Source: Fundidesulfovibrio agrisoli
GTDB lineage: Bacteria; Desulfobacterota; Desulfovibrionia; Desulfovibrionales; Desulfovibrionaceae
NCBI RefSeq assembly: GCF_022808715.1
Contig: NZ_JAKZKX010000011.1
Location: 39,726 to 103,725, forward strand
Reading direction: 5' to 3'
DNA length: 64,000 nucleotides
This document shows positions 32,562 to 46,289 of the stretch, piece by piece. Below the pieces are notes generated by a model. It had not been told where the DNA came from. It saw only the letters and a list, made by a program, of their open reading frames with translations, and made no database searches. Within the stretch, counting starts at the first letter, position 1. Every line of letters starts with the position of its first letter. Both the position numbers and the translations under genes were made by a program.

Positions 32562-32813
32562 TTATTGCCCTCCCGGCTTGCGGTCTATTCCGGTCACCAC
32601 GAACACCCTCCCCGGCCCGTCCTTGGGCGCGGGCGCGTCCTCGGCGGTCTGCCGGGCGATGTCCTTGATCTCCTTGGCCGCAGCCAGTTGCACCTTGTCG
32701 TCTTCGGCTTCAAGCAGGCGCTCCAGCACGTCCAGCACCTTCTCCGAGAGAAGTGCGGCTGCACGCTGGCACACCGGCTTGCGCCTGGCCGATGTTCTGC
32801 GCGCTCCGGGCAT
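32562..32813 (-). CDS. Small hypothetical protein of the lysis module
   Basis: 83 residues. Basic N-terminus, a helical middle (LLSEKVLDVLERLLEAEDDKVQLAAAKEIKDI) and no signal or membrane segment. Last gene of a five-gene minus-strand set with a transglycosylase at its head; 3 bp after the preceding gene. It could be a terminase-small-subunit-like or regulatory phage protein, but nothing is decisive. Confidence 0.5.
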   Translation of the reverse strand: MPGARRTSARRKPVCQRAAALLSEKVLDVLERLLEAEDDKVQLAAAKEIKDIARQTAEDAPAPKDGPGRVFVVTGIDRKPGGQ

Positions 32814-32816
32814 GCG

Positions 32817-33071
32817 TCACTTCACCGCCTGCCGCACCAGCCGTTCCCACGCGGCCAGCCCGAGCCAGGCCAGCCCGCCGCCCACCAGCGAGGTGACGAC
32901 GGCGTTGAACAGCTGGGTGCGCAGGGAGAAGGCCCCGCGCAGCATCTGGTGATGCCGGGCGTGTTCGCCCGGCGCCAGATCGCACCCGGCGCAGCAGTCC
33001 TGGCGCAGGGCGCCGTCTTCCAATGCCTCCTTGATGGCCTCCCTGACGAGGGGTTTGAGGTTGTCGTTCAC
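32817..33071 (-). CDS. Small membrane protein, holin/spanin-like
   Basis: 84 residues with two cysteines (DCCAGC), a charged N-terminal half and one hydrophobic segment near the C-terminus (LFNAVVTSLVGGGLAWLGLAAW). GTG start. Position in the lysis module suggests a membrane-acting lysis accessory; the ribosome site is weak. Confidence 0.5.
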   Translation of the reverse strand: MNDNLKPLVREAIKEALEDGALRQDCCAGCDLAPGEHARHHQMLRGAFSLRTQLFNAVVTSLVGGGLAWLGLAAWERLVRQAVK

Positions 33072-33078
33072 GGGGGCC

Positions 33079-33255
33079 CTACGCGACCGGCTCCGCGGTG
33101 AAGAGCCGCAGGGCCGTGTTGGTCACGGCCAGCAGGGCGGCCTGCAGGGCGGGGTCCATCACGCTGGTTCCCACGGCGGCCTGCACGCCGACGGCGGTCA
33201 GGGCTGCGAGGTTGGTCCATATCGTCTTGGAAGCGTACCACTTCTTGGCGTTCAC
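33079..33255 (-). CDS. Holin-like small membrane protein
   Basis: 58 residues starting at GTG 33255, which overlaps the nuclease stop and has CAGGAG upstream. KKWYASKTIWTN followed by a hydrophobic stretch and a C-terminal LRLFTAEP resembles small phage proteins found beside endolysins and often annotated as holins. It would give the transglycosylase access to the wall. Confidence 0.55.
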   Translation of the reverse strand: MNAKKWYASKTIWTNLAALTAVGVQAAVGTSVMDPALQAALLAVTNTALRLFTAEPVA

Positions 33256-33734
33256 TTGTTTCTCCTGTGGTGTTTGCGCCACTGCCAGGGCGGCACGGGC
33301 GCGGGGTCGGCCCAGAGGCCCAGCCCGCGAAGCCTGGCCGCCGTTTCGGCCAGGCGCAGCCCATAGCAGGGGCGGCAGTAGTTGCGGTACACCCAGGCGT
33401 GCCCGGCCCGCACCATCTCGGAGTTGAGTTCCGATCCGTCCGGTAGCAGGACAACGGCCACGGTGCGCCCGTAGGCGTCAATGTCCTTTTCCCGGACGTC
33501 CACGCGTTTGCCCAGGGCCAGGTGGCTCAGGTAATCCCTGGCTTCACGGCCGTCGAGCTGGGCGAGTTCGGGGGCGTCGATGCCGAAGAGGCGCACGTGC
33601 ACGCCCTCCACGGTGATGGTGTCGCCGTCGGCCACACGCTGGACCGTTCCTTCGAAGGCCCACGCGGCGCTAGCGGCGAGGATCAGGCCCAGGGCCATGA
33701 GGCCGGGCAGGGCTCGTCTGGCTATGTTCTTCAT
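33252..33734 (-). CDS. Exported thermonuclease-family (SNase) protein
   Basis: 160 residues: signal peptide (ALPGLMALGLILAASAAWA), then the staphylococcal nuclease fold with RVADGDTITV, RLFGIDAPE and DAYGRTVA carrying the expected catalytic Arg and Glu residues. It probably cuts nucleic acid outside the cytoplasm. Overlaps the transglycosylase stop (ATGA). The link with lysis genes suggests degradation of released DNA, or use in a phage-like particle cycle. Confidence 0.8.
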   Translation of the reverse strand: MKNIARRALPGLMALGLILAASAAWAFEGTVQRVADGDTITVEGVHVRLFGIDAPELAQLDGREARDYLSHLALGKRVDVREKDIDAYGRTVAVVLLPDGSELNSEMVRAGHAWVYRNYCRPCYGLRLAETAARLRGLGLWADPAPVPPWQWRKHHRRNK

Positions 33735-34219
33735 TGGGGCCACTTCCCGCCGAGGGCGCGGGCGATTTTGTCCACATAGGACTGGTTCACGAACGAGCCG
33801 TCGGCGGCGAAGCGCGCCGAACCGGCGTTGTAGGCGGCGGCCACTCCGGGCCAGCCGTGTTTGCCGCACAGGCGGTCGCGCAGCCGTGCCAGCAGCCTGC
33901 AACCGTATTCAAGCCCGGTGGCCGGGTCCGTCAGGGCTGAGAGGAACGGCCCCTGGTAACCCAGGCCCCTGGCCGTCGCGCCCATGACCTGCATCAGCCC
34001 CCAGGAGGTGGCCAGGGCCTGGCGCTCGGAGTCCAGGCTGCAGGGGGCCTTGGGGCGCACGGAGGCGTCGTTGGCCACGTGGCGCGCGTAGTACGCGGGT
34101 TCAAACCGGAAGGCCCACGCGTTGCCTCCCGACTCCACTCCAACCACCGCCGCCACGAGTTCCGGGGGCAGGCCCCAGGCCTTGGCGGCGTTCTCGATGA
34201 GCATCTCCTGCTCGGTCAT
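33731..34219 (-). CDS. Lytic transglycosylase / endolysin
   Basis: 162 residues with an SLT (goose-lysozyme-like) domain: AAVVGVESGGNAWAF with the catalytic Glu, SWGLMQVMGATARGLGY, and AAYNAG near the end. It cleaves the glycan strand of peptidoglycan. No signal peptide, which fits a holin-dependent endolysin. AAGGAG precedes ATG 34219. Head of the minus-strand lysis operon. Confidence 0.85.
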   Translation of the reverse strand: MTEQEMLIENAAKAWGLPPELVAAVVGVESGGNAWAFRFEPAYYARHVANDASVRPKAPCSLDSERQALATSWGLMQVMGATARGLGYQGPFLSALTDPATGLEYGCRLLARLRDRLCGKHGWPGVAAAYNAGSARFAADGSFVNQSYVDKIARALGGKWPQ

Positions 34220-38225: not shown

Positions 38226-38525
38226 TTACCCCCCGGTGGCCAGGGTTATGTTGGCCGTATCGTCGCAGGCCCTGAACTCGGGCCGCTCCCGCAGCAGCCA
38301 CTCCAGCTGGTCCTGGTCCATGTTCATGGCGTGGACGTTCTCCTTGAAGTCGCCGCGCGGCATGTAGAAGGGGATCACCGCCTCGATGCGGCAATCCTTG
38401 AAGAAGGCGCGCTGGTCCTCCGGGAGGCGGCGCAGAAATTTGGTCAGCATGAGGATGGGCAGGTTGTTCTGGGTGGCGCTGGCGTGCAGCTCCTCCTCGC
38501 CGACAGTGATGCGGTGCTCTATCAT
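38226..38525 (-). CDS. Capsid-associated small protein, truncated copy
   Basis: 99 residues, almost identical to the first 99 residues of the gene at 41729-42112 (MIEHRIT, LPILMLTKFL, PFYMPRGDF) but ending right after TLATGG, so it lacks the last 28 residues with their cysteines. AAAGGAT ribosome site. It lies in a 502-bp duplication (38229-38730) next to a capsid 3' fragment. Possibly non-functional. Confidence 0.65.
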   Translation of the reverse strand: MIEHRITVGEEELHASATQNNLPILMLTKFLRRLPEDQRAFFKDCRIEAVIPFYMPRGDFKENVHAMNMDQDQLEWLLRERPEFRACDDTANITLATGG

Positions 38526-38730
38526 CGGGTATCCTTTAAGGGGGCGGGCCCCGTGGCCCGCCCTGGTTTGTCAGTCGGTTAGTCGGTCGCGCACTTCTTG
38601 CACTTGGAGGCGGACTTCTCGCCCAGCATCACGAAGGTGGCCTCCATGATGGACTGGCACTTCACGGAGTCGCCCGTGGCGGCCAGGTCAACGCACTTGA
38701 AGGGCCGCAGGAAGGCCATGGAGCAGCGGG
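38229..38730. repeat. Duplicated block R2, copy A
   Basis: Nearly identical to 41816-42315: end of the capsid gene, the GC hairpin spacer and the small capsid-associated gene. Identity stops abruptly at both ends. Confidence 0.85.
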
Positions 38731-38732
38731 GG
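38579..38732 (-). pseudogene. 3' fragment of major capsid gene
   Basis: Encodes the last ~51 residues of the capsid protein (SMAFLRPFKCVDLAATG to SKCKKCATD), differing at a few positions from the intact copy at 42164-43120. Upstream sequence is unrelated, with no start in the right place. Remnant of a capsid-gene duplication. Confidence 0.8.
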
Positions 38733-38832
38733 GGGGTAGTAGACTGAGAGGCGGCGAATCGAGGTGGGTGGCTTTGGGCACGCCGCCCTGAGGGGGAAAA
38801 TTGAGGATGTTTTGCTTGTCTCTTAAGGCATC

Positions 38833-39390
38833 CTATCTCTTGTAGCTGTTCAGGACGTCGTTGAACCAACTTGTGAACGATCGTAATGTGGGAAGTATGG
38901 CGTTGTGGAAGATAAAGATAAGCAATTTATTGTAATAATGTATGAGAATGCCAAGTAGTGCGCCGGTGACGGCGGCAGGTACTAATGCAGTGAGGCATCC
39001 CGTCAAATCTTCCTGAAACGATTCAAGCACTAACTTTGAAGCACGGTTTTCAAATATTCCGAAATGTTTGAGTACGAAGGGTGACCAAGACTCCAGAAGG
39101 ACGAGTGGTGGTGCCAGGAGGCCTAATAACGCGCCAGAGGTGACGTTTTTTAACGCTACGTTATTTTTAGACAATATTTTTGCAGTGTCAAAAAATGTAA
39201 TTGCAGGTGTAAGTATAAAGCATGTAACAAATTCATGCTTGTATAAAAACTGTGAGCTGATTTTCCACGTAGATGGTATGAAAACCAGCGCAAGGCACAT
39301 TGATACGACATTGGCTATGACTAGCGTTGCTGTGTGTATATATTTATAAGGGAAATGATTTTGGCAAGACTCGCTTTGGGCTTGGTTCAT
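38833..39390 (-). CDS. Multi-spanning membrane protein, possible immunity or holin partner of the amidase-like gene
   Basis: 185 residues with about four membrane helices (ATLVIANVVSMCLALVFI, TCFILTPAITFF, GALLGLLAPPLVLLE, TALVPAAVTGALLGI). AAGGATGG before ATG 39390. Low GC compared with neighbours. It follows the amidase-like gene on the same strand after 95 bp. No homology recognised; membrane immunity proteins against periplasmic wall-degrading effectors often have this form. Confidence 0.6.
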   Translation of the reverse strand: MNQAQSESCQNHFPYKYIHTATLVIANVVSMCLALVFIPSTWKISSQFLYKHEFVTCFILTPAITFFDTAKILSKNNVALKNVTSGALLGLLAPPLVLLESWSPFVLKHFGIFENRASKLVLESFQEDLTGCLTALVPAAVTGALLGILIHYYNKLLIFIFHNAILPTLRSFTSWFNDVLNSYKR

Positions 39391-39484
39391 AAGTTGCCAT
39401 CCTTGGTTATTTATTCATAAATAGATTATGCACCTGGAAGGCGTCAAGGAGATGTTCGCCTTCCATGCGAACAAAGTTAGTTGG

Positions 39485-40123
39485 CTATTTGTATCTCCTT
39501 ATGATTGGAGTTGCGCCTGGAAAAGATTCGCTGGCAGATCGGATGGTGTTCTCCTTTAAACCTTCGTGACCTGCATAAATAACCTTTCCGTCTCCAGTCG
39601 CGATGGCACTATGGTGGTTGCCATTGCCGTACCAGACAACAATATCTCCTGGCTTGGCCAGGTTGACGTCATCATGGTATTCAAGGGTGCTTGGTGCAAA
39701 TTCAGGGTCGGCAAGGTTGTCCACCGTGGGCTTGAAATAATCCCGGCGGAAAGGATTGCCAGGGTTTCTGTCGCGTAGCACGGTCGGAAAACCAGCCCCG
39801 AGAGGGTCGCCCGCTAGATGCGCTTCGTAGGCGAATTCATTGCATTTCGGATAGGATTTGAAACTCCATCGGGGTCCTTCAGCCCATTTCTCCGGATTGC
39901 TTGCCAGTTCACTACGGGCGAAGTCGGCCCTTTGTTGCCCTCTATTCATCCGCTCAGCCTCGGATGCTTCTTCCGTGGGCATCGGGCGAGCATCGCCAGG
40001 GTTCTCCGAGCCCTCGACGTTGTCTTGAAAGGTGGGCGGTGTAGCTGAGGCGTCATGGAGACGCTTCTCGTCATCCAGCCAGCAATAGTCCGAGAAATTC
40101 GGGTCATCGATTCTTTCGCTCAT
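39485..40123 (-). CDS. Variable gene 1: shared N-terminal motif plus Cys/His amidase-like domain
   Basis: 212 residues. Residues 1-28 (SERIDDPNFSDYCWLDD, RLHDAS) match the genes at 41057 and 45356; the rest is unrelated to them. The C-terminal domain has SYPKCNEFAYEAHLAG with the likely nucleophile Cys, and PGDIVVWYGNGNHHSAIATG with the likely His, the layout of NlpC/P60, CHAP and T6SS amidase effectors. It would cut peptidoglycan peptides. AAGGAGG before the tandem ATGs at 40126 and 40123. Downstream of a frameshifted copy of the small capsid-associated gene. Confidence 0.75.
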   Translation of the reverse strand: MSERIDDPNFSDYCWLDDEKRLHDASATPPTFQDNVEGSENPGDARPMPTEEASEAERMNRGQQRADFARSELASNPEKWAEGPRWSFKSYPKCNEFAYEAHLAGDPLGAGFPTVLRDRNPGNPFRRDYFKPTVDNLADPEFAPSTLEYHDDVNLAKPGDIVVWYGNGNHHSAIATGDGKVIYAGHEGLKENTIRSASESFPGATPIIRRYK

Positions 40124-40286
40124 CATGCTCCTCCTTTAGAACTTCTCGTTACAGGTTGAATCGTCTCCGGCCTGCGCACCGTCGTTGCCGCCGCTCAAGG
40201 CCGTACCGAACGACATAACCTTCCCCCCCCGGTTGCCAGGGTGTTGTTGGCCGTATCGTTGCAGGCCCTGAACTCGGGCCGCTCGC
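40046..40286. repeat. Duplicated block R1, copy C
   Basis: Nearly identical to 41639-41875: the 3' end of the small capsid-associated gene, the ribosome site, and the 5' end (about 28 codons) of the variable gene. Confidence 0.85.
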
Positions 40287-40293
40287 GAAACAG
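40130..40293 (-). pseudogene. 3' fragment of small capsid-associated gene, frameshifted
   Basis: Matches codons from FRERPEFRAC to STCNEKF of the intact gene at 41729. A C-run of eight (six in the other copies) shifts the frame within the fragment. No start remains. Confidence 0.75.
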
Positions 40294-40401
40294 TACATCG
40301 GTCAAGGCGCGTCGATAGGATAATTACTTGACGGCGACAAAATTTTCCGAATATTAGCGTGTTGTCAGATAACACTTATTAAGTATCGGCGGTGGGGGGG
40401 T

Positions 40402-40500
40402 ATGCTTAGGGAGTTTGCACTTGGACTCGCGAATATCGCAGTTAGTTGTGCACTCGGGTATGGATTGGTGTTGTTATATAAAAGATTGCTGGTGAGTTGA
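40402..40500 (+). CDS. Tiny membrane peptide
   Basis: 32 residues, one hydrophobic helix (LGLANIAVSCALGYGLVLLY) with basic end KRLLVS. GGGGGGG directly upstream of ATG 40402. Next tiny gene starts 2 bp later, which suggests a real small operon in an AT-rich stretch. Function unknown; could be a toxin-like or lysis peptide. Confidence 0.4.
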   Translation: MLREFALGLANIAVSCALGYGLVLLYKRLLVS

Positions 40501-40501
40501 G

Positions 40502-40627
40502 ATGGGTTCAAAAGAAAAAGCAGAGATGATTCGGAAGGAAGTCCGCGGTATATTTTTAGCGGAGTTTGGGTTTGTAGTCCTGTTCTTCTTGTACGAAAAA
40601 TATTACAATGGCGGCTGCTCATGGTAG
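40502..40627 (+). CDS. Tiny membrane peptide
   Basis: 41 residues: charged N-terminal half (MGSKEKAEMIRKEVRG) and one hydrophobic helix (IFLAEFGFVVLFFLY). Immediately follows the preceding tiny gene. No homology recognised. Confidence 0.4.
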   Translation: MGSKEKAEMIRKEVRGIFLAEFGFVVLFFLYEKYYNGGCSW

Positions 40628-40644
40628 GTAGATCTTTCCTTTCC

Positions 40645-40728
40645 ATGAAGGATGTTTACGATGTGCTGCTGTTTACAGCTCAGTTTGTGTTGTTTTACTT
40701 TGTGATTGAAAACATGTGCAGGAGATGA
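40645..40728 (+). CDS. Tiny membrane peptide
   Basis: 27 residues, MKDVYDVLLFTAQFVLFYFV with basic end CRR. Weak ribosome site. Same strand as the two tiny genes before it. Confidence 0.3.
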   Translation: MKDVYDVLLFTAQFVLFYFVIENMCRR

Positions 40729-40865
40729 CGTTTTCAGAACTGTGAATCGTGATTTAACTACAGTTTGTTGGGCAATTTTCCGATAAGCAAATCCCGAAAA
40801 TCGCCAGGACAAGTTGCTGATTGGCCACCACTATAAAATGGTAATAGCTTTACGGGTGGGCTGAA

Positions 40866-40958
40866 GTGAAGATTCTTAAGCGCATATTGGAAAAAATCAT
40901 TGAGCTTGAACTGTGGAGCACCGTGTTTTATGCTATTTTGCATTTGTTTAAGAAGTAA
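40866..40958 (+). CDS. Tiny amphipathic/membrane peptide
   Basis: 30 residues from GTG 40866, MKILKRILEKIIELELWSTV and FYAILHLFKK. Amphipathic and basic at both ends, resembling small membrane toxins. GGTGGG upstream. The opposite strand also has an 81-codon frame (40758-41003), judged less likely. Confidence 0.35.
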   Translation: MKILKRILEKIIELELWSTVFYAILHLFKK

Positions 40959-41015
40959 TTTTTGTTGAGCCGTTCGACTGGATGGTGGCCAGAAATTTGC
41001 CATGCAGTATGTCTC

Positions 41016-41045
41016 GGGCGCAGCATTTTCTGCAATGCTGCGCCC
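41016..41045. terminator. Hairpin after variable gene 2
   Basis: GGGCGCAGCATT and AATGCTGCGCCC, 12 bp perfect, 6-nt loop, no T-run. 12 bp past the variable gene 2 stop. Confidence 0.55.
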
Positions 41046-41056
41046 AAGTAAAGTGA

Positions 41057-41716
41057 TTACTTGTTCCCTGAAAATGAGTTATTGAAAATTCCTTTCAAGG
41101 AGGTGGAGCCGAAGGTCATCGCGCCTTTTGCAATGCTCGTCGCATATGGAGCTCCCCTGAGAACAGAGAGTCCGCTTGTTGCAATTGCTGCTGCTGTGGC
41201 ATCAATCGGACTGTCTGCGCTTTGAAGCGGTGCGTCCATCTTGCGCCTGGCCATTTCATCTTCAACTTGCCTTGCTTCCGTAGAGTCCAACCTCCTGCCC
41301 ACGTTTGGGATCACATTCTGTGATTTGTACAAAGCACCTCCGTACCGGAAATATTCATCTCCATCGAGTGCAAACCTTTTCTCACCAGCCACCTTTTCCT
41401 GAGCTGATGGAAAATCAGGGTGGGACCTGAAGTCGAGGAGCTGTTGTTCTTGTTGGCCAGAGTTCACTGTATGAGCCGGTACCATCTTGAACTCAGGGGG
41501 GCCGACATCGTCTTGCTGTTGCCCCTGCCCATCCATCTTCCGCAAATGCGCCACGGCCAGATCCCGGTAGGTGAGGGTCTTGGGCATCTGCTCCAATGCC
41601 TGCTCCACGCTGGTCGAGGGTTGCGGCGCGGGCGTTTCTGAGGCGTCATGTAGACGCTTCTCGTCATCCAGCCAGGAATAGTCCGAGAAATTCGGGTCAT
41701 CGATTCTTTCGCTCAT
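41057..41716 (-). CDS. Variable gene 2: shared N-terminal motif, unknown C-terminus
   Basis: 219 residues. N-terminus SERIDDPNFSDYSWLDD and RLHDAS as in variable gene 1; middle Gln-rich (GQGQQQDD); C-terminus with a small-residue hydrophobic stretch (ATAAAIATSGLSVLRGAPYA) and GAMTFGSTSLKGIF, which could insert in membranes. AGGAGG before the tandem ATGs. Starts 12 bp after the small capsid-associated gene and is co-transcribed with the capsid. No known family. Confidence 0.65.
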   Translation of the reverse strand: MSERIDDPNFSDYSWLDDEKRLHDASETPAPQPSTSVEQALEQMPKTLTYRDLAVAHLRKMDGQGQQQDDVGPPEFKMVPAHTVNSGQQEQQLLDFRSHPDFPSAQEKVAGEKRFALDGDEYFRYGGALYKSQNVIPNVGRRLDSTEARQVEDEMARRKMDAPLQSADSPIDATAAAIATSGLSVLRGAPYATSIAKGAMTFGSTSLKGIFNNSFSGNK

Positions 41717-41875
41717 CATGCTCCTCCTTCAGAGCTTCTCGTTACAGGTTGAACCGTCTCCGGCCAGCGCGCCGTCGTTGCCTTCCGTCATGGCCGTCCC
41801 GCACGACACTACCTTCCCCCCGGTGGCCAGGGTTATGTTGGCCGTATCGTCGCAGGCCCTGAACTCGGGGCGCTC
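41639..41875. repeat. Duplicated block R1, copy B
   Basis: Partner of 40046-40286. Confidence 0.85.
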
Positions 41876-42112
41876 CCGCAGCAGCCAGTCCAATTGGTCC
41901 TGGTCCATGTTCATGGCGTGGACGTTCTCCTTGAAGTCGCCGCGCGGCATGTAGAAGGGGATCACCGCCTCGATGCGGCAATCCTTGAAGAAGGCGCGCT
42001 GGTCCTCCGGGAGGCTGCGCAGAAATTTGGTCAGCATGAGGATGGGCAGGTTGTTCTGGGTGGCGCTGGCTTGCAGCTCCTCCTCGCCGAGGGTGATGCG
42101 GTGTTCGATCAT
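41729..42112 (-). CDS. Small capsid-associated protein (intact copy)
   Basis: 127 residues, soluble. MIEHRITLGEEELQASATQNN, PFYMPRGDF, then a tail with cysteines (ACDD, SCGT, TCNEK). Unknown family; its place directly after the capsid gene suggests a head decoration or assembly protein. AGGACAG before ATG 42112. A GC hairpin (42125-42148) separates it from the capsid gene. Confidence 0.7.
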   Translation of the reverse strand: MIEHRITLGEEELQASATQNNLPILMLTKFLRSLPEDQRAFFKDCRIEAVIPFYMPRGDFKENVHAMNMDQDQLDWLLRERPEFRACDDTANITLATGGKVVSCGTAMTEGNDGALAGDGSTCNEKL

Positions 42113-42315
42113 AGGCTGTCCTATGGGGCGGGCCTTGCGGCCCGCCCCTGGTTTGTCAGTCGGTTAGTCGGTCGCGCACTTCTTGCACTTGGAGGCGGAC
42201 TTCTCGTTGTGCATCACGAAGGTGGCCTCCACGATGGACTGGCACTTCACGGAGTCGCCCGTGGCGGCCAGGTCAACGCACTTGAAGGGCCGCAGGAAGG
42301 CCATGGAGCAGCGGG
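41816..42315. repeat. Duplicated block R2, copy B
   Basis: Partner of 38229-38730. Confidence 0.85.
42125..42148 (-). terminator. Attenuator-like hairpin between capsid and small protein genes
   Basis: GGGGCGGGCC, 4-nt loop, GGCCCGCCCC, no long T-run. Conserved with a changed loop in copy A (38540-38563), so the structure seems kept; it may lower expression downstream of the capsid gene. Confidence 0.5.
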
Positions 42316-43120
42316 ACGGGTCGTAGACGTACACGCGGTCGTACTTGGTGCCGGTGTCGTCGTCCTTGGCCAGGTAGCGGTCGATGGTCACCTTCATGCG
42401 CCCGAAGGGGGTCTCCAGGACCATCACGGCCATGACCAGGGTCTGCTCCGAGGCGTTGGTGTTCACCGTGATGCGCCCGGCCTGGTTCCAGTTGGCGATC
42501 TTGCGCGCCTGCACAGGCCCCACCAGGATCACGGAAGGCTCGCCCCCGGCCTCGTAGCAGGCCTGCGACATCTCCATCAGCTTGGCCTCGGAGAAGTCGT
42601 TGGTGGCGTTGTAGCTGGCGTAGCTCTTGTCGTTGGTGGAGACGAAGCCCTCCAGGCCCTTCATCTGGCGCGCGGTGCCCGCGTCGCCCGCGCTGGCGGC
42701 GGCGTTGTTCAAGGCCGCGTATTCCAGCTCCGTGTTCAGGTAGCGGAAGCTCTTGTCCATCTCGTACTGCTTCACGCGCTGGCGGCCGAGCGGGGTCACG
42801 GCGTCCAGGGTGCCGGAGATCTTGAAGGTGTCCTCAAGGATCTGACAGTAGTTGGAGAGCCGCACCGGCGCGGTGCGGGCCGTGGCCACGGCGTCCGCGC
42901 CCTCGATGGCCTTGTTGGAGCCGGTGGGGGTCTTGAGTTCGTCCTCCAGCCATTCGTGGAGCACGTTCTTGGCCTTTCCGGTGCCGATGGAGGCGATGAA
43001 GGGGGTCTTGTGGGGCGTGACGGTCTGGATCACGTTCTCCACGTCCGAGAAGAGGGTGTCCTTCATTTCGCGCACACCGGCGCCGGAATTGGAGTAGTAG
43101 GAAGTCAGGGAATCAGCCAT
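42164..43120 (-). CDS. SU10-type major capsid protein
   Basis: 318 residues. ENVIQTVTPHKTPFIASIG, EWLEDEL, NYCQILEDTFKISGTLDAV and GEPSVILVGPVQARKI resemble HK97-fold SU10-like major capsid proteins (DUF5309 type), which build phage heads. The C-terminus is unusually Cys-rich (FKCVDLAATG, KCQS, SKCKKCATD) and could form crosslinks. AAGGAGA upstream of ATG 43120. Second gene of the head operon after the scaffold-like gene. No protease, portal or terminase is adjacent. Confidence 0.8.
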   Translation of the reverse strand: MADSLTSYYSNSGAGVREMKDTLFSDVENVIQTVTPHKTPFIASIGTGKAKNVLHEWLEDELKTPTGSNKAIEGADAVATARTAPVRLSNYCQILEDTFKISGTLDAVTPLGRQRVKQYEMDKSFRYLNTELEYAALNNAAASAGDAGTARQMKGLEGFVSTNDKSYASYNATNDFSEAKLMEMSQACYEAGGEPSVILVGPVQARKIANWNQAGRITVNTNASEQTLVMAVMVLETPFGRMKVTIDRYLAKDDDTGTKYDRVYVYDPSRCSMAFLRPFKCVDLAATGDSVKCQSIVEATFVMHNEKSASKCKKCATD

Positions 43121-43151: not shown

Positions 43152-44054
43152 TTAGCGGCCGGAGCCGGAATTCATGGAGAGTTCGAGGTAGCGCAGCAGG
43201 TCGCCCTCGCGGGCGCGGCCGGATTTGGCGCGGGCCTTGAGCTCGGCCAATTCGGTGGAGCGGGCGGCCCCGCCCAGGCGTTCTTCAAGGACGCCAGCGC
43301 TCTCCAGGGCGGGAGCGGCCATGCGACCGGCCACGGCGCGGCGGATGCGCGCGCGGGGATCGGTTTCGTCAGGCTGCCGATCCTGCGGCATCGCATTGTT
43401 CACCGGTTTGCTCAGGTCGTATTCGATGGCGGTACGCAGGTGGATGTAGAGATCCAGGAACGCACCCGGAGTGCGGTCCACCGCCTCCAAATAGACGCGC
43501 TGAATCTTTTCGGGTATCCTCTGAATGTAACTCGCAAGCCTGTTGTAGGTAGTCGCGAACAGCGGGTCGTTGGCCTTGAGCACCGCCAGCATGACCTGGT
43601 TGTTCAGGACCTTGCGCTGGGCGCGGCGGACCTGACGCTCCTGCCCACGGCGCTGGCGGTTGGCCATGGCGGCCTGCCACTGGGCGCGGGCCATGGGGTT
43701 CATGGGGGGCGGCCCCAGGGGGATGTCGGGCAGGCCGTCGCCGTCAATGTCGATGCCTTCCAGGTGTTCGATCATGCCGGGGCGCGCGGCCAGTTGGGCC
43801 AAGGCGGACCGCAGGGCGTCGGGCGCGGCGGCCACGGGCTGGGGAGGCAGGTTGCGGGGAGCGGCCTGGGCGGGCTGGACGGCATCCTGAGCCAGCGCGC
43901 GCCTGCGCTGGATCTCCTCGTCGGGAAGCTCTGATTCGCCGGGGGCGAAGCCTGCGAGCTGCTCCAGGTAGCGGCGGTAGGCCAGTTCGTTGCGGGCCTG
44001 ACCGTCGGCGGACGATTGCTGCCCGGCGGGGCCGGACATGGTGGGATAGGGCAT
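43152..44054 (-). CDS. Scaffold-like head assembly protein
   Basis: 300 residues, hydrophilic, Pro/Ala/Gln-rich N-terminal half, an Asp-rich DIDGDGLPDIP loop that could bind Ca, a basic central helix (RQRRGQERQVRRAQRK) and a long helical C-terminus. Such composition and the position directly before the capsid gene fit a scaffolding or portal-associated protein. AGGAGG precedes ATG 44054. Operon head, with a palindromic operator upstream. Confidence 0.55.
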   Translation of the reverse strand: MPYPTMSGPAGQQSSADGQARNELAYRRYLEQLAGFAPGESELPDEEIQRRRALAQDAVQPAQAAPRNLPPQPVAAAPDALRSALAQLAARPGMIEHLEGIDIDGDGLPDIPLGPPPMNPMARAQWQAAMANRQRRGQERQVRRAQRKVLNNQVMLAVLKANDPLFATTYNRLASYIQRIPEKIQRVYLEAVDRTPGAFLDLYIHLRTAIEYDLSKPVNNAMPQDRQPDETDPRARIRRAVAGRMAAPALESAGVLEERLGGAARSTELAELKARAKSGRAREGDLLRYLELSMNSGSGR

Positions 44055-44113: not shown

Positions 44114-44161
44114 ATTGTATGCAGGCGGTTTTTTATTTCACCCCACATAGGGCTATGTGGG
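44114..44161 (-). promoter_or_regulatory. Capsid operon promoter with 20-bp palindromic operator
   Basis: Palindrome CCCACATA-N4-TATGTGGG at 44142-44161 directly abuts GTGAAA (-35, 44141-44136), a 16-bp spacer and TACAAT (-10, 44119-44114) on the minus strand. On the plus side AAAGTTGAAA follows. The same layout recurs at 46242-46289. Confidence 0.65.
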
Positions 44162-44230
44162 TAAAAAGTTGAAAAAACTTTGAGGCGGCCATCGAGCGCC
44201 CGGGCGTAGGCGGAGCCGAAAGGAGCAAAT

Positions 44231-45202
44231 ATGGTGTGGCGTGTCGTGCTTGGTTTGTTGTGTCTGGGATTGGTGGCGGTGTCACCGGTGAGCGCATCGG
44301 AACAGACTGACCTGCTCGGGGTAAGGCAACAGTGGATAGACTTCTTCAAACGCACAACTGCGGATATCGAGGCGATTCACACGACGATGGAAGGCGCGAA
44401 AGCCCTTGAATTGCCGGAAGGCGATAACAATAAAGACGCTTTTGCATTGAATGAAGTCACTTCAGAGATCTGGGGGCTGGTTGGATTCACTGAGTTGGCG
44501 CAGGATGTGCTCTTCGCGGCCAGGGTTGAGGCGGGTATCGCCTTGGATATGAAAACCAAACCCGTTGTGTACGCTGACGCTCTCAATAGGTTTCCGGGGC
44601 CTGTGCCTCAGATGGCTGAAAAGGCCATGGCGGGCATTGGAGCGGTATCAAACCAAAAGCTGAGACAGGTGGCAGAAAAGATGGTGCCGGCAATACAGGA
44701 TTTGGTTTCGGCATACGGCGGATGGCCAGGTGATTTTCTCAGAATGCATCTGAAGGATGAGCCATATGGCAAAGGTGATCTGCCAAAGGATGTGGTTGAT
44801 TTGGCTGGTGCCGTCGATCAGGTCAATGAAGCAGCAGCACGATACTTTGTTGAAGTGGCCGAAGCAGAAAAGGGCTTACCGCCTGCCTCATTGGACTATC
44901 TGAGCCTGTTCAGGCAATCACAGCGCAGCGTCACAAGCCTGACGATCTCAGTTGCCGATATTTATATGCTGGTTGTCGCCAAGGCTCGCTTGGATGCCGT
45001 TCAGCGCAAAACTGAATATGCAGAGGAAGACAATGAGATCGTCCGCGTGTTGCTGGAAGAAAGGTTCAGGAGTTATAGGTCGATGCTGACAAATTTTGAG
45101 AAGCAATGCTCTGTGGTCAATGCAAGGGATAAAGAGCTGTGCAGGCGGATGGAGATGCTCTTTAAAGCAGTGCAAGAGCGCATGGCGAAGTTTGTCATTT
45201 AG
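44231..45202 (+). CDS. Exported helical protein of unknown function
   Basis: 323 residues: signal peptide (VVLGLLCLGLVAVSPVSA), then a mostly helical, low-GC protein (FKRTTADIEAIHTTMEG, QSQRSVTSLTISVADIYML, LLEERFRSYRSMLTNFEKQC). AAAGGAGC before ATG 44231. Divergent from the head operon and sharing its palindromic operator, so likely co-regulated. It is followed by a hairpin shared with the convergent variable gene 3. No family recognised. Confidence 0.65.
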   Translation: MVWRVVLGLLCLGLVAVSPVSASEQTDLLGVRQQWIDFFKRTTADIEAIHTTMEGAKALELPEGDNNKDAFALNEVTSEIWGLVGFTELAQDVLFAARVEAGIALDMKTKPVVYADALNRFPGPVPQMAEKAMAGIGAVSNQKLRQVAEKMVPAIQDLVSAYGGWPGDFLRMHLKDEPYGKGDLPKDVVDLAGAVDQVNEAAARYFVEVAEAEKGLPPASLDYLSLFRQSQRSVTSLTISVADIYMLVVAKARLDAVQRKTEYAEEDNEIVRVLLEERFRSYRSMLTNFEKQCSVVNARDKELCRRMEMLFKAVQERMAKFVI

Positions 45203-45267
45203 ATATGATTTTTCAATTTGGTTGTAATGGTGCGTTTAGCATTTGTTGTGGCCTTGAATAGGCGATG

Positions 45268-45302
45268 TGCTGCGGCCGCTGACAATCAGTCCGGCCGCAG
45301 CA
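45268..45302. terminator. Hairpin between convergent genes
   Basis: TGCTGCGGCCG and CGGCCGCAGCA, 11 bp, between the exported protein gene (plus) and variable gene 3 (minus). Confidence 0.55.
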
Positions 45303-45355
45303 GTTGTTTGGCAGGGCTCCTTTTGCGGAGCACCTGCTCTTGGCGTGGGGGTAGG

Positions 45356-45931
45356 CTACGGCCTCATTACGGAGTCTAGCCCCTCGACGGCGTTCTTTGA
45401 TTTATTGAGTACGTTGTACAAAGAACTGGCTGGCCCTGGAACGTACCTGGCACCCATGCTTAAGAGACCTTCGGCTTTGGCTTGCCGCTGTTCATCCGTG
45501 AGAGGGGTGCCGGATGCCTGAAGGACCGCCATCGTTAGCGCCTTCGGCGCATCCAGCCCCGGATGCAACGCCTTGGTCAGGCCGCTAACCCTCTCCTCAA
45601 TGGGTGTGTCATAGCCCAGGCTCGGGTGGACCTCCAAGCCGACGCCACGAACGATCCCCTTTGCGAAACCTGAGAAGGCCTGGACAAAAGGGTTCTCCAT
45701 ATACTTGTTGTAGGGCATGCGGCTGTTCCATCCGCCTTCGCCTTCCTTGGGGGCGCGGATGATGGCGGCATCGGGGTCAAAGGGCTGAGTTGGGTCACCA
45801 TTTCCCTGCGGGTTGTAGCCCGGAGCCGCCTGCGACGGGCCGGGATTGACCTCCAGGGGGCCGAGGGTGTGGTTCACGTCGTCTGTCCAGGAGTAATCCT
45901 GGAATCCGGGATCATCAGTTCTCTCGCTCAT
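45356..45931 (-). CDS. Variable gene 3: diverged shared N-terminal motif
   Basis: 191 residues. N-terminus SERTDDPGFQDYSWTDD is a diverged form of the motif in variable genes 1 and 2. The rest differs from both: a Pro/Gly-rich linker (PSQAAPGYNPQGNG), then FVQAFSGFAKGIVRGVGLEV and a helical C-terminus ending SKNAVEGLDSVMRP. No enzyme motif seen. It follows a 67-residue protein gene in an operon driven by the second palindrome. Confidence 0.6.
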   Translation of the reverse strand: MSERTDDPGFQDYSWTDDVNHTLGPLEVNPGPSQAAPGYNPQGNGDPTQPFDPDAAIIRAPKEGEGGWNSRMPYNKYMENPFVQAFSGFAKGIVRGVGLEVHPSLGYDTPIEERVSGLTKALHPGLDAPKALTMAVLQASGTPLTDEQRQAKAEGLLSMGARYVPGPASSLYNVLNKSKNAVEGLDSVMRP

Positions 45932-45987
45932 CTGTCTTTCCATCCTGTGGTTGAGGTTGACCAGGGTTCTCCAGCGATGGCGGCCCG

Positions 45988-46191
45988 TCACTTCCAGGCG
46001 GAACTGTGGCGCAAGATCCGGGGCGTCCAGGCCGCGCGGGACCGCCAGCGGCGGCGTTCGTCGTCGGCGCGAGCCTCGCGCTCGATGTGGACGGAGCTTC
46101 CCGAACCGGCGGCGGGCGTGCCTGGGCCTGCATCCGGGGCTTGCTCCGGGCGGTTGTCGGCCAAGGGGGTGGGAGGGATAGGCTGGCGCAT
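45988..46191 (-). CDS. Small Pro/Arg-rich protein
   Basis: 67 residues, low complexity (MRQPIPPTPLADNRPEQAP, ERRRWRSRAAW). AGGAG lies 8 bp before ATG 46191. First gene after the second palindromic promoter, leading into variable gene 3. Likely structural or linker-like; function unknown. High GC leaves other frames open, so the reading is moderately certain. Confidence 0.45.
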   Translation of the reverse strand: MRQPIPPTPLADNRPEQAPDAGPGTPAAGSGSSVHIEREARADDERRRWRSRAAWTPRILRHSSAWK

Positions 46192-46241
46192 CGGGGTGTC
46201 TCCTGTTGGATTCCGCATCTGCGAAGGCGGAGGATCCCCGG

Positions 46242-46289
46242 AGCCTAGTCAGGATGGATTATTTTGCACCCCACATAGGGATATGTGGG
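46242..46289 (-). promoter_or_regulatory. Second copy of the palindromic promoter
   Basis: CCCACATA-N4-TATGTGGG at 46270-46289 abuts GTGCAA (46269-46264), 16-bp spacer, TAGGCT (46247-46242). Same geometry as the copy at 44114-44161; AAAGTTGAAA again follows on the plus side. Confidence 0.65.

Follow-up and report, generated by a model that had tools for sequence, protein, structure and literature searches.

What does a 20-bp palindrome that stands twice beside the head genes of a phage-like region in Fundidesulfovibrio agrisoli control, and what kind of protein would read it? In the 64,000-nucleotide stretch analysed here (the window), CCCACATA-N4-TATGTGGG is matched exactly at 44142-44161 and 46270-46289, with both 8-bp arms identical and the central N4 reading GGGC and GGGA on the plus strand, respectively. 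These two remain the only matches in the window at up to three mismatches, compared to 0.07 expected by chance, and none of 100 shuffled controls reached two palindrome matches. On the minus strand, each palindrome abuts a promoter consisting of a GTG[A/C]AA −35 element, a 16-bp spacer and a −10 element, and promoter 1 was also found by an independent promoter scan (Table 1). A reading made from the sequence alone had called the two units identical, which holds for the arms but not for the centre, the spacer sequence and the −10 element, the latter differing in strength as well.

Table 1. Features of the two palindrome-promoter units and of the genes around them, in window coordinates.
Feature	Position	Strand	Remarks
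Palindromic operator 1	44142..44161	−	CCCACATAGCCCTATGTGGG read on the minus strand; exact match; the genome has 16 promoter-linked copies in all
Promoter 1	44114..44141	−	−35 GTGAAA 44136-44141, 16-bp spacer, −10 TACAAT 44114-44119
A-rich upstream flank of promoter 1 (AAAGTTGAAA), UP-element-like	44162..44177	−	conserved in the 91-site profile
Palindromic operator 2	46270..46289	−	CCCACATATCCCTATGTGGG read on the minus strand; exact match
Promoter 2	46242..46269	−	−35 GTGCAA 46264-46269, 16-bp spacer, weak −10 TAGGCT 46242-46247
Scaffolding protein, 300 aa, first gene of unit 1	43152..44054	−	precedes capsid gene; paralogs at other sites
Major capsid protein, SU10_MCP (PF17236)	42164..43120	−	E=4.4e-74; PHROG major head protein
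Conserved small protein, 127 aa, immediately downstream of capsid gene	41729..42112	−	75-93% identical in two other species
Cargo-like protein	41057..41719	−	N-terminal MSERxDDPxFxDYSW, variable C-terminus; by alignment and phmmer
Small ORF (76 aa frame) directly after promoter 2	45988..46218	−	87% identical in sister species G009 and therefore probably a gene
Cargo-like protein "gene 3", 191 aa, MSER N-terminus	45356..45931	−	homologs in G009 and G100, same place
Exported all-helical protein, 323 aa	44231..45202	+	convergent to 45356 cargo gene; candidate immunity protein
Orphan cargo, MSER N-terminus and NlpC/P60-like amidase C-terminus	39485..40126	−	by alignment and structural matches
Membrane protein, 185 aa, after NlpC-like cargo	38833..39390	−	by position and hydrophobic sequence; candidate immunity protein
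Remnant duplicate	38226..38737	−	capsid C-terminus 38582-38737; 127-aa gene 38226-38525

The genes behind the promoters are those that had been proposed, with the scaffold-capsid operon following promoter 1 and the variable gene 3 unit following promoter 2. Both units had furthermore been taken to control divergent transcripts, and AAAGTTGAAA adjoins both palindromes on the plus strand. To judge the direction of the sites we turned to 91 of them from six genomes, which are partly homologous by descent or duplication and hence non-independent, and all of which except the F. agrisoli set (genome G000) were detected with a profile that itself contains the −10. At a distance of exactly 22 nt beyond the palindrome, 78 % of these sites have TAnnnT; the share is 0-2 % at every other offset examined (10-39) and 2 % for the mirrored 22 nt on the opposite side. 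Among the 16 sites found by the palindrome alone, which give the cleaner figure, TAnnnT is present at 22 nt in 15. As the −10 lies almost exclusively on the downstream side, the promoter reads one way, and divergent transcription from one site is not supported; the plus-strand AAAGTTGAAA is no second promoter but belongs to the A-rich stretch that is conserved upstream of the minus-strand promoter, and on its plus side, towards the exported protein gene, operator 1 showed no promoter. Truly divergent units (L079, L103, L124) contain two palindromes, one per unit. The terminase start codon is found 37 nt past the palindrome in nearly all species (L010 8172-8231 and equivalents); given where the −10 is predicted, the mRNA would have next to no leader.

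In class II activator promoters, such as those of the LuxR lux box, CRP class II and Mu Mor/C, a palindrome sits against a weak −35 or directly upstream of it, the spacing is fixed and the flank further upstream is A-rich. The sites described here, with the operator directly upstream of a weak −35 and a base-exact distance to the −10, fit this geometry and would form a promoter set of the class II type, although the palindrome differs in sequence from the lux, CRP and Mor/C boxes. Long near-perfect palindromes are often repressor operators and particle genes must be silent in most cells, so that a dedicated repressor, removed on induction, could be thought to keep the genes silent instead. Repressors, however, usually overlap the −35/−10/+1 region and tolerate variable spacing, whereas here the site lies wholly upstream of the −35, at a base-fixed distance to the −10 behind a weak −35 and a 16-bp spacer, with the A-rich flank further upstream. 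We consider a repressor unlikely and favour activation because of the position upstream of the −35 with invariant spacing, as the placement beside the −35 had already suggested to the sequence-only reading.

The palindrome is not confined to the head region, as the initial description of a local pair would have it. When up to two mismatches were allowed, the pattern was met at 17 places in the entire genome of 3.94 Mb (52 contigs), compared to a single one for a reversed-pattern control, and 16 of the 17 are linked to a promoter. The exception at C25:13539, with two mismatches, is without a −10 at the required spacing and is the sole copy of this non-promoter kind found. With about 16 copies across the genome, the pair would rather belong to a chromosome-wide regulon. 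Aligned in the direction of the −10, the 16 sites share a block of ~60 bp, aACTTTCTC-CCCACATAGCCCTATRTGGG-GTGAAA-N16-TAnnAT, and a model of this block retrieved 13-18 sites in each of five other genomes of the same genus and zero in the seventh genus genome, G075. Among 288 genomes of the family, covering 44 genera, more than one match was obtained only in the six site-bearing genomes of this genus. Scanning the IMG/VR viral contigs did not reveal the palindrome, nor do the capsid relatives in other genera (G093, G030, G070, G053, G012) have it. A literature search with the two octamers turned up only unrelated uses in the papers listed, no Rfam match was obtained between 30 and 50 kb of the window, and no tRNA was found in the window.

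The centre of the palindrome varies between species in a concerted manner. While it is mostly GCGC (xCGC) in other species, giving the perfect 20-bp palindrome CCCACATAGCGCTATGTGGG, it reads xCCC in transcription direction in 34 of 34 sites of F. agrisoli and its nearest sister G009. Such a concerted change at scattered sites is expected if one diffusible protein reads them all; gene conversion between cassettes could contribute to it.

Besides the scaffold and SU10 capsid genes of the window, sites directly precede the terminase and SU10 portal genes and the SU10 adaptor gene, all at L010, and the tail collar fibre and assembly chaperone genes at L008. At L009 a site is followed by the gene of a 499-aa stabilisation-type protein, named so by our own judgement of the sequence and its recurrence at sites in all six species, with a 373-aa partner; they are without a family match. 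The same particle families recur at sites in other species. Other units begin with scaffold paralogs, several of which end in [KR]xGxAREGDLLRYxEL (the C-terminal motif of the window scaffold, KSGRAREGDLLRYLEL, is common to several paralogs in the genome), or with variable proteins such as an SLT transglycosylase (L012), an M23 peptidase (L124, G100) and a further family without Pfam match (L008, L013). One cargo group has the N-terminus MSERxDDPxFxDYSW in common, and three of its members are encoded in the window (45356, 41057 and 39485). In no unit was the gene directly behind the box seen to encode a recognisable transcription factor, which gives no sign of a regulator acting on its own gene by way of this box. 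Divergent SU10-type capsid genes with 34-41 % identity were observed in the genus and the family, at G094:C1:11317-12180 (L132) and G093:C1:299363-300241 (L128).

The scattering of the sites might also be that of a mobile promoter repeat which spreads by itself or by transposition and lands upstream of genes, and promoter cassettes are tandemly duplicated in G094 C14, G009 C12 and G050 C26. The sequence-only reading had itself named a common dispersed repeat unrelated to phage genes as the result that would speak against it. The sites are indeed dispersed, but the genes recognised in the list of those downstream are particle genes, their paralogs and cargo, in the same orientation and at syntenic places. 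No transposase was seen around the ~60-bp block, and the cargo units may have spread through duplicated cassettes, an explanation that does not extend to the core loci, which makes a self-spreading repeat very improbable.

The core loci are situated beside the same host genes in four to six species. An NYN-domain-like gene adjoins the terminase and adaptor locus, a DNA-alkylation-repair-like gene the stabilisation protein and an ECF sigma-like gene the fibre locus, while Hsp20 and folD genes lie near the capsid locus, all named by our judgement of the sequences. In all five species where the fibre locus was seen (at L008 upstream of the fibre promoter, with equivalents in G009, G100, G050 and G094), the ECF sigma-like gene is accompanied by an anti-sigma-like gene. 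G075 has neither sites nor any relative of this capsid; there, only 119 bp separate the NYN gene from the one found past the portal in G100, representing an empty terminase site. Between species the core proteins are 57-98 % identical with dN/dS values of 0.11-0.59, whereas the nearest phage capsids reach ~33 % identity, and a peptide-pattern scan found no portal relatives in free phages. When 99 genomes were sampled from the host's family, 9 proved to have this capsid family, and in named host genomes the capsid gave only one distant match, at 30 %, in a Synergistaceae MAG. The capsid and scaffold genes and the AT-rich variable genes around them could suggest an ordinary prophage, intact or decaying, whose two operators drive divergent transcripts. 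The terminase, portal, stabilisation and fibre genes, however, lie on other contigs beside host genes and at the same places across species, the sites occupy 16 places, and a second promoter on the plus side is missing. Within the window no contiguous phage genome with integrase and replication genes is visible around 33-47 kb, no replication or integration genes were seen beside the inspected sites, and the structural genes do not form the contiguous genome, with integration and replication modules, of a temperate prophage. A prophage is very improbable.

Instead, phage-type capsid, portal, terminase and tail genes are under purifying selection and reside at several chromosomal loci that are vertically inherited; gene transfer agents (GTAs; criteria in PMC11841831) are characterised by such scattered, syntenic and constrained genes. 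The best reading of dispersal, synteny and constraint is that the particle has been domesticated by its host.

Candidates for the regulator were sought among known families. A Mor/C-type activator was rejected, being absent from the site-bearing G009 and G100 and present three times in the site-less G075; the neighbourhood of L034 looks Mu-like. The occurrence of CCACA within the half-site prompted a search for the DnaA-C domain of GafY-type regulators. These were rejected as well, as every complete genus genome, including the site-less one, has two DnaA-C matches and no more, located in long open frames of ~440-490 aa. Genes with LuxR/GerE domains number 1-4 per site-bearing genome and 10 in G075, and none of their groups shows a clear match to the distribution of the sites.

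The cargo units show a conserved N-terminal part, a variable C-terminus and neighbouring exported or membrane proteins, and thereby the predicted architecture of polymorphic toxins with a shared N-terminus, a variable C-terminal domain and an adjacent candidate immunity gene. In L012 and G100, an exported protein is convergent to the SLT cargo, and both NlpC-like cargos, the one in the window and a related one in L015, are followed by a membrane protein. The window cargo at 39485 resembles NlpC/P60 or Tse1/Tae1 type enzymes most closely in structure, with a best Z of 8.9 obtained with a modest model (mean pLDDT 59). Judged by these arrangements, the exported and membrane neighbours look like immunity proteins. 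Homologs of the exported protein in the window are 35-41 % identical and lie beside the same cargo in G009 and G100; its AlphaFold model has a pLDDT of 80.6 and gave no PDB match with E<=0.001. A sequence search finds no relation between this family and the exported family of L012 (8229-9218) and L074, suggesting two separate candidate immunity families.

Further partial copies of the capsid C-terminus or the next gene are present near 40120-40290 and, together with the remnant duplicate, appear to be marks of cassette recombination. The array of cargo cassettes after the capsid gene (38226-42112) resembles orphan toxin cassettes left by homologous recombination. Tandem duplications of promoter and cargo units, or of the promoter with the 5' end of a scaffold gene, were observed in L074 (G100), L109 (G009), L086 (G094) and L076 (G050), and several G050 contigs end near a site, as if repeated cassettes had broken the assembly. 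A set of lysis-like genes at 32562-34219 (transglycosylase-like, thermonuclease-like and small holin-like ORFs) is conserved in G009; it has no palindrome, lies 9 kb from the capsid operon and could be the lysis module of the particle.

Taken together, one genus-specific activator acting in trans probably co-expresses a dispersed, host-domesticated, GTA-like particle along with its cargo. The sites with their fixed geometry, the genes, their synteny, the restriction to the genus and the empty locus are observations, from which we infer activation over repression, a single regulator and the particle function. A candidate dimeric activator would bind the palindrome in trans and, seated upstream of and against the weak −35 (GTGAAA, 16-bp spacer, TAnnAT −10), switch the promoter on. 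The ~13-18 one-way promoters scattered over the chromosome would thus form one genus-specific regulon. Its genes would be those that can be recognised of a domesticated podovirus-like particle of SU10 type, with terminase and portal, adaptor, scaffold and capsid, tail and fibre genes. It would also take in paralogs of the scaffold as well as variable cargo, which includes several peptidoglycan hydrolases with exported or membrane neighbours, and the common sites would stand in for the co-transcription lost when the phage genes dispersed.

This arrangement resembles the GTAs of Rhodobacter capsulatus (RcGTA, activator GafA) and Caulobacter (CcGTA, activators GafY/GafZ, repressor RogA) in its selected phage-derived structural genes, its several loci and a dedicated activator, which is predicted in our case. 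In Caulobacter, ten loci respond when RogA is lost, and GafYZ acts on several distal ones (PMC9632790); GafA acts through the omega subunit of RNA polymerase (PMC9638019). The present system differs from both in the SU10-type lineage of capsid, portal and adaptor, in having few core genes per locus and no long central structural cluster, in the 20-bp palindrome directly at the −35, in the variable hydrolase cargo and in the absence of an extra DnaA-C (GafY-type) protein. GTAs outside the alphaproteobacteria are represented by VSH-1 of Brachyspira, for which the title of a work cited in PMC11841831 reports a divided genome, and Dd1 of Desulfovibrio; a phage-like particle outside that class is what the present system would have in common with them. 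With SU10, the LUZ24-like and the Manatee Spring podoviruses it has the SU10_MCP, SU10_portal and SU10_adaptor Pfam families in common, at a capsid identity of ~33 % at best, but those are free phages with contiguous genomes. The cargo in turn recalls polymorphic toxin systems (reviewed in PMC3482391) and the type VI amidase effectors Tse1/Tae1 in the conserved N-terminus, variable C-terminal enzymes, neighbouring candidate immunity genes and orphan cassettes; the carrier here would, unlike theirs, be a phage-like head with scaffold paralogs.

It is conceivable, though less likely than not, that the regulon builds a phage-derived weapon particle, in which scaffold paralogs load wall-hydrolase or pore-forming cargo into the head, each cassette brings its own immunity gene and the shared activator box is the sole tie between them. 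If true, this would be a headed, cargo-swappable delivery system and not a DNA-transfer agent.

The box gives an exact DNA signature, searchable in genomes, with which the dispersed units of a phage-derived particle can be gathered; to prophage finders these would look like remnants without any connection. The testable questions raised are the identity of the activator and whether the particle load is DNA, toxins or both. The findings point to a GTA-like system derived from an SU10-type phage outside the alphaproteobacteria and would show how co-expression can outlast the dispersal of a phage genome.
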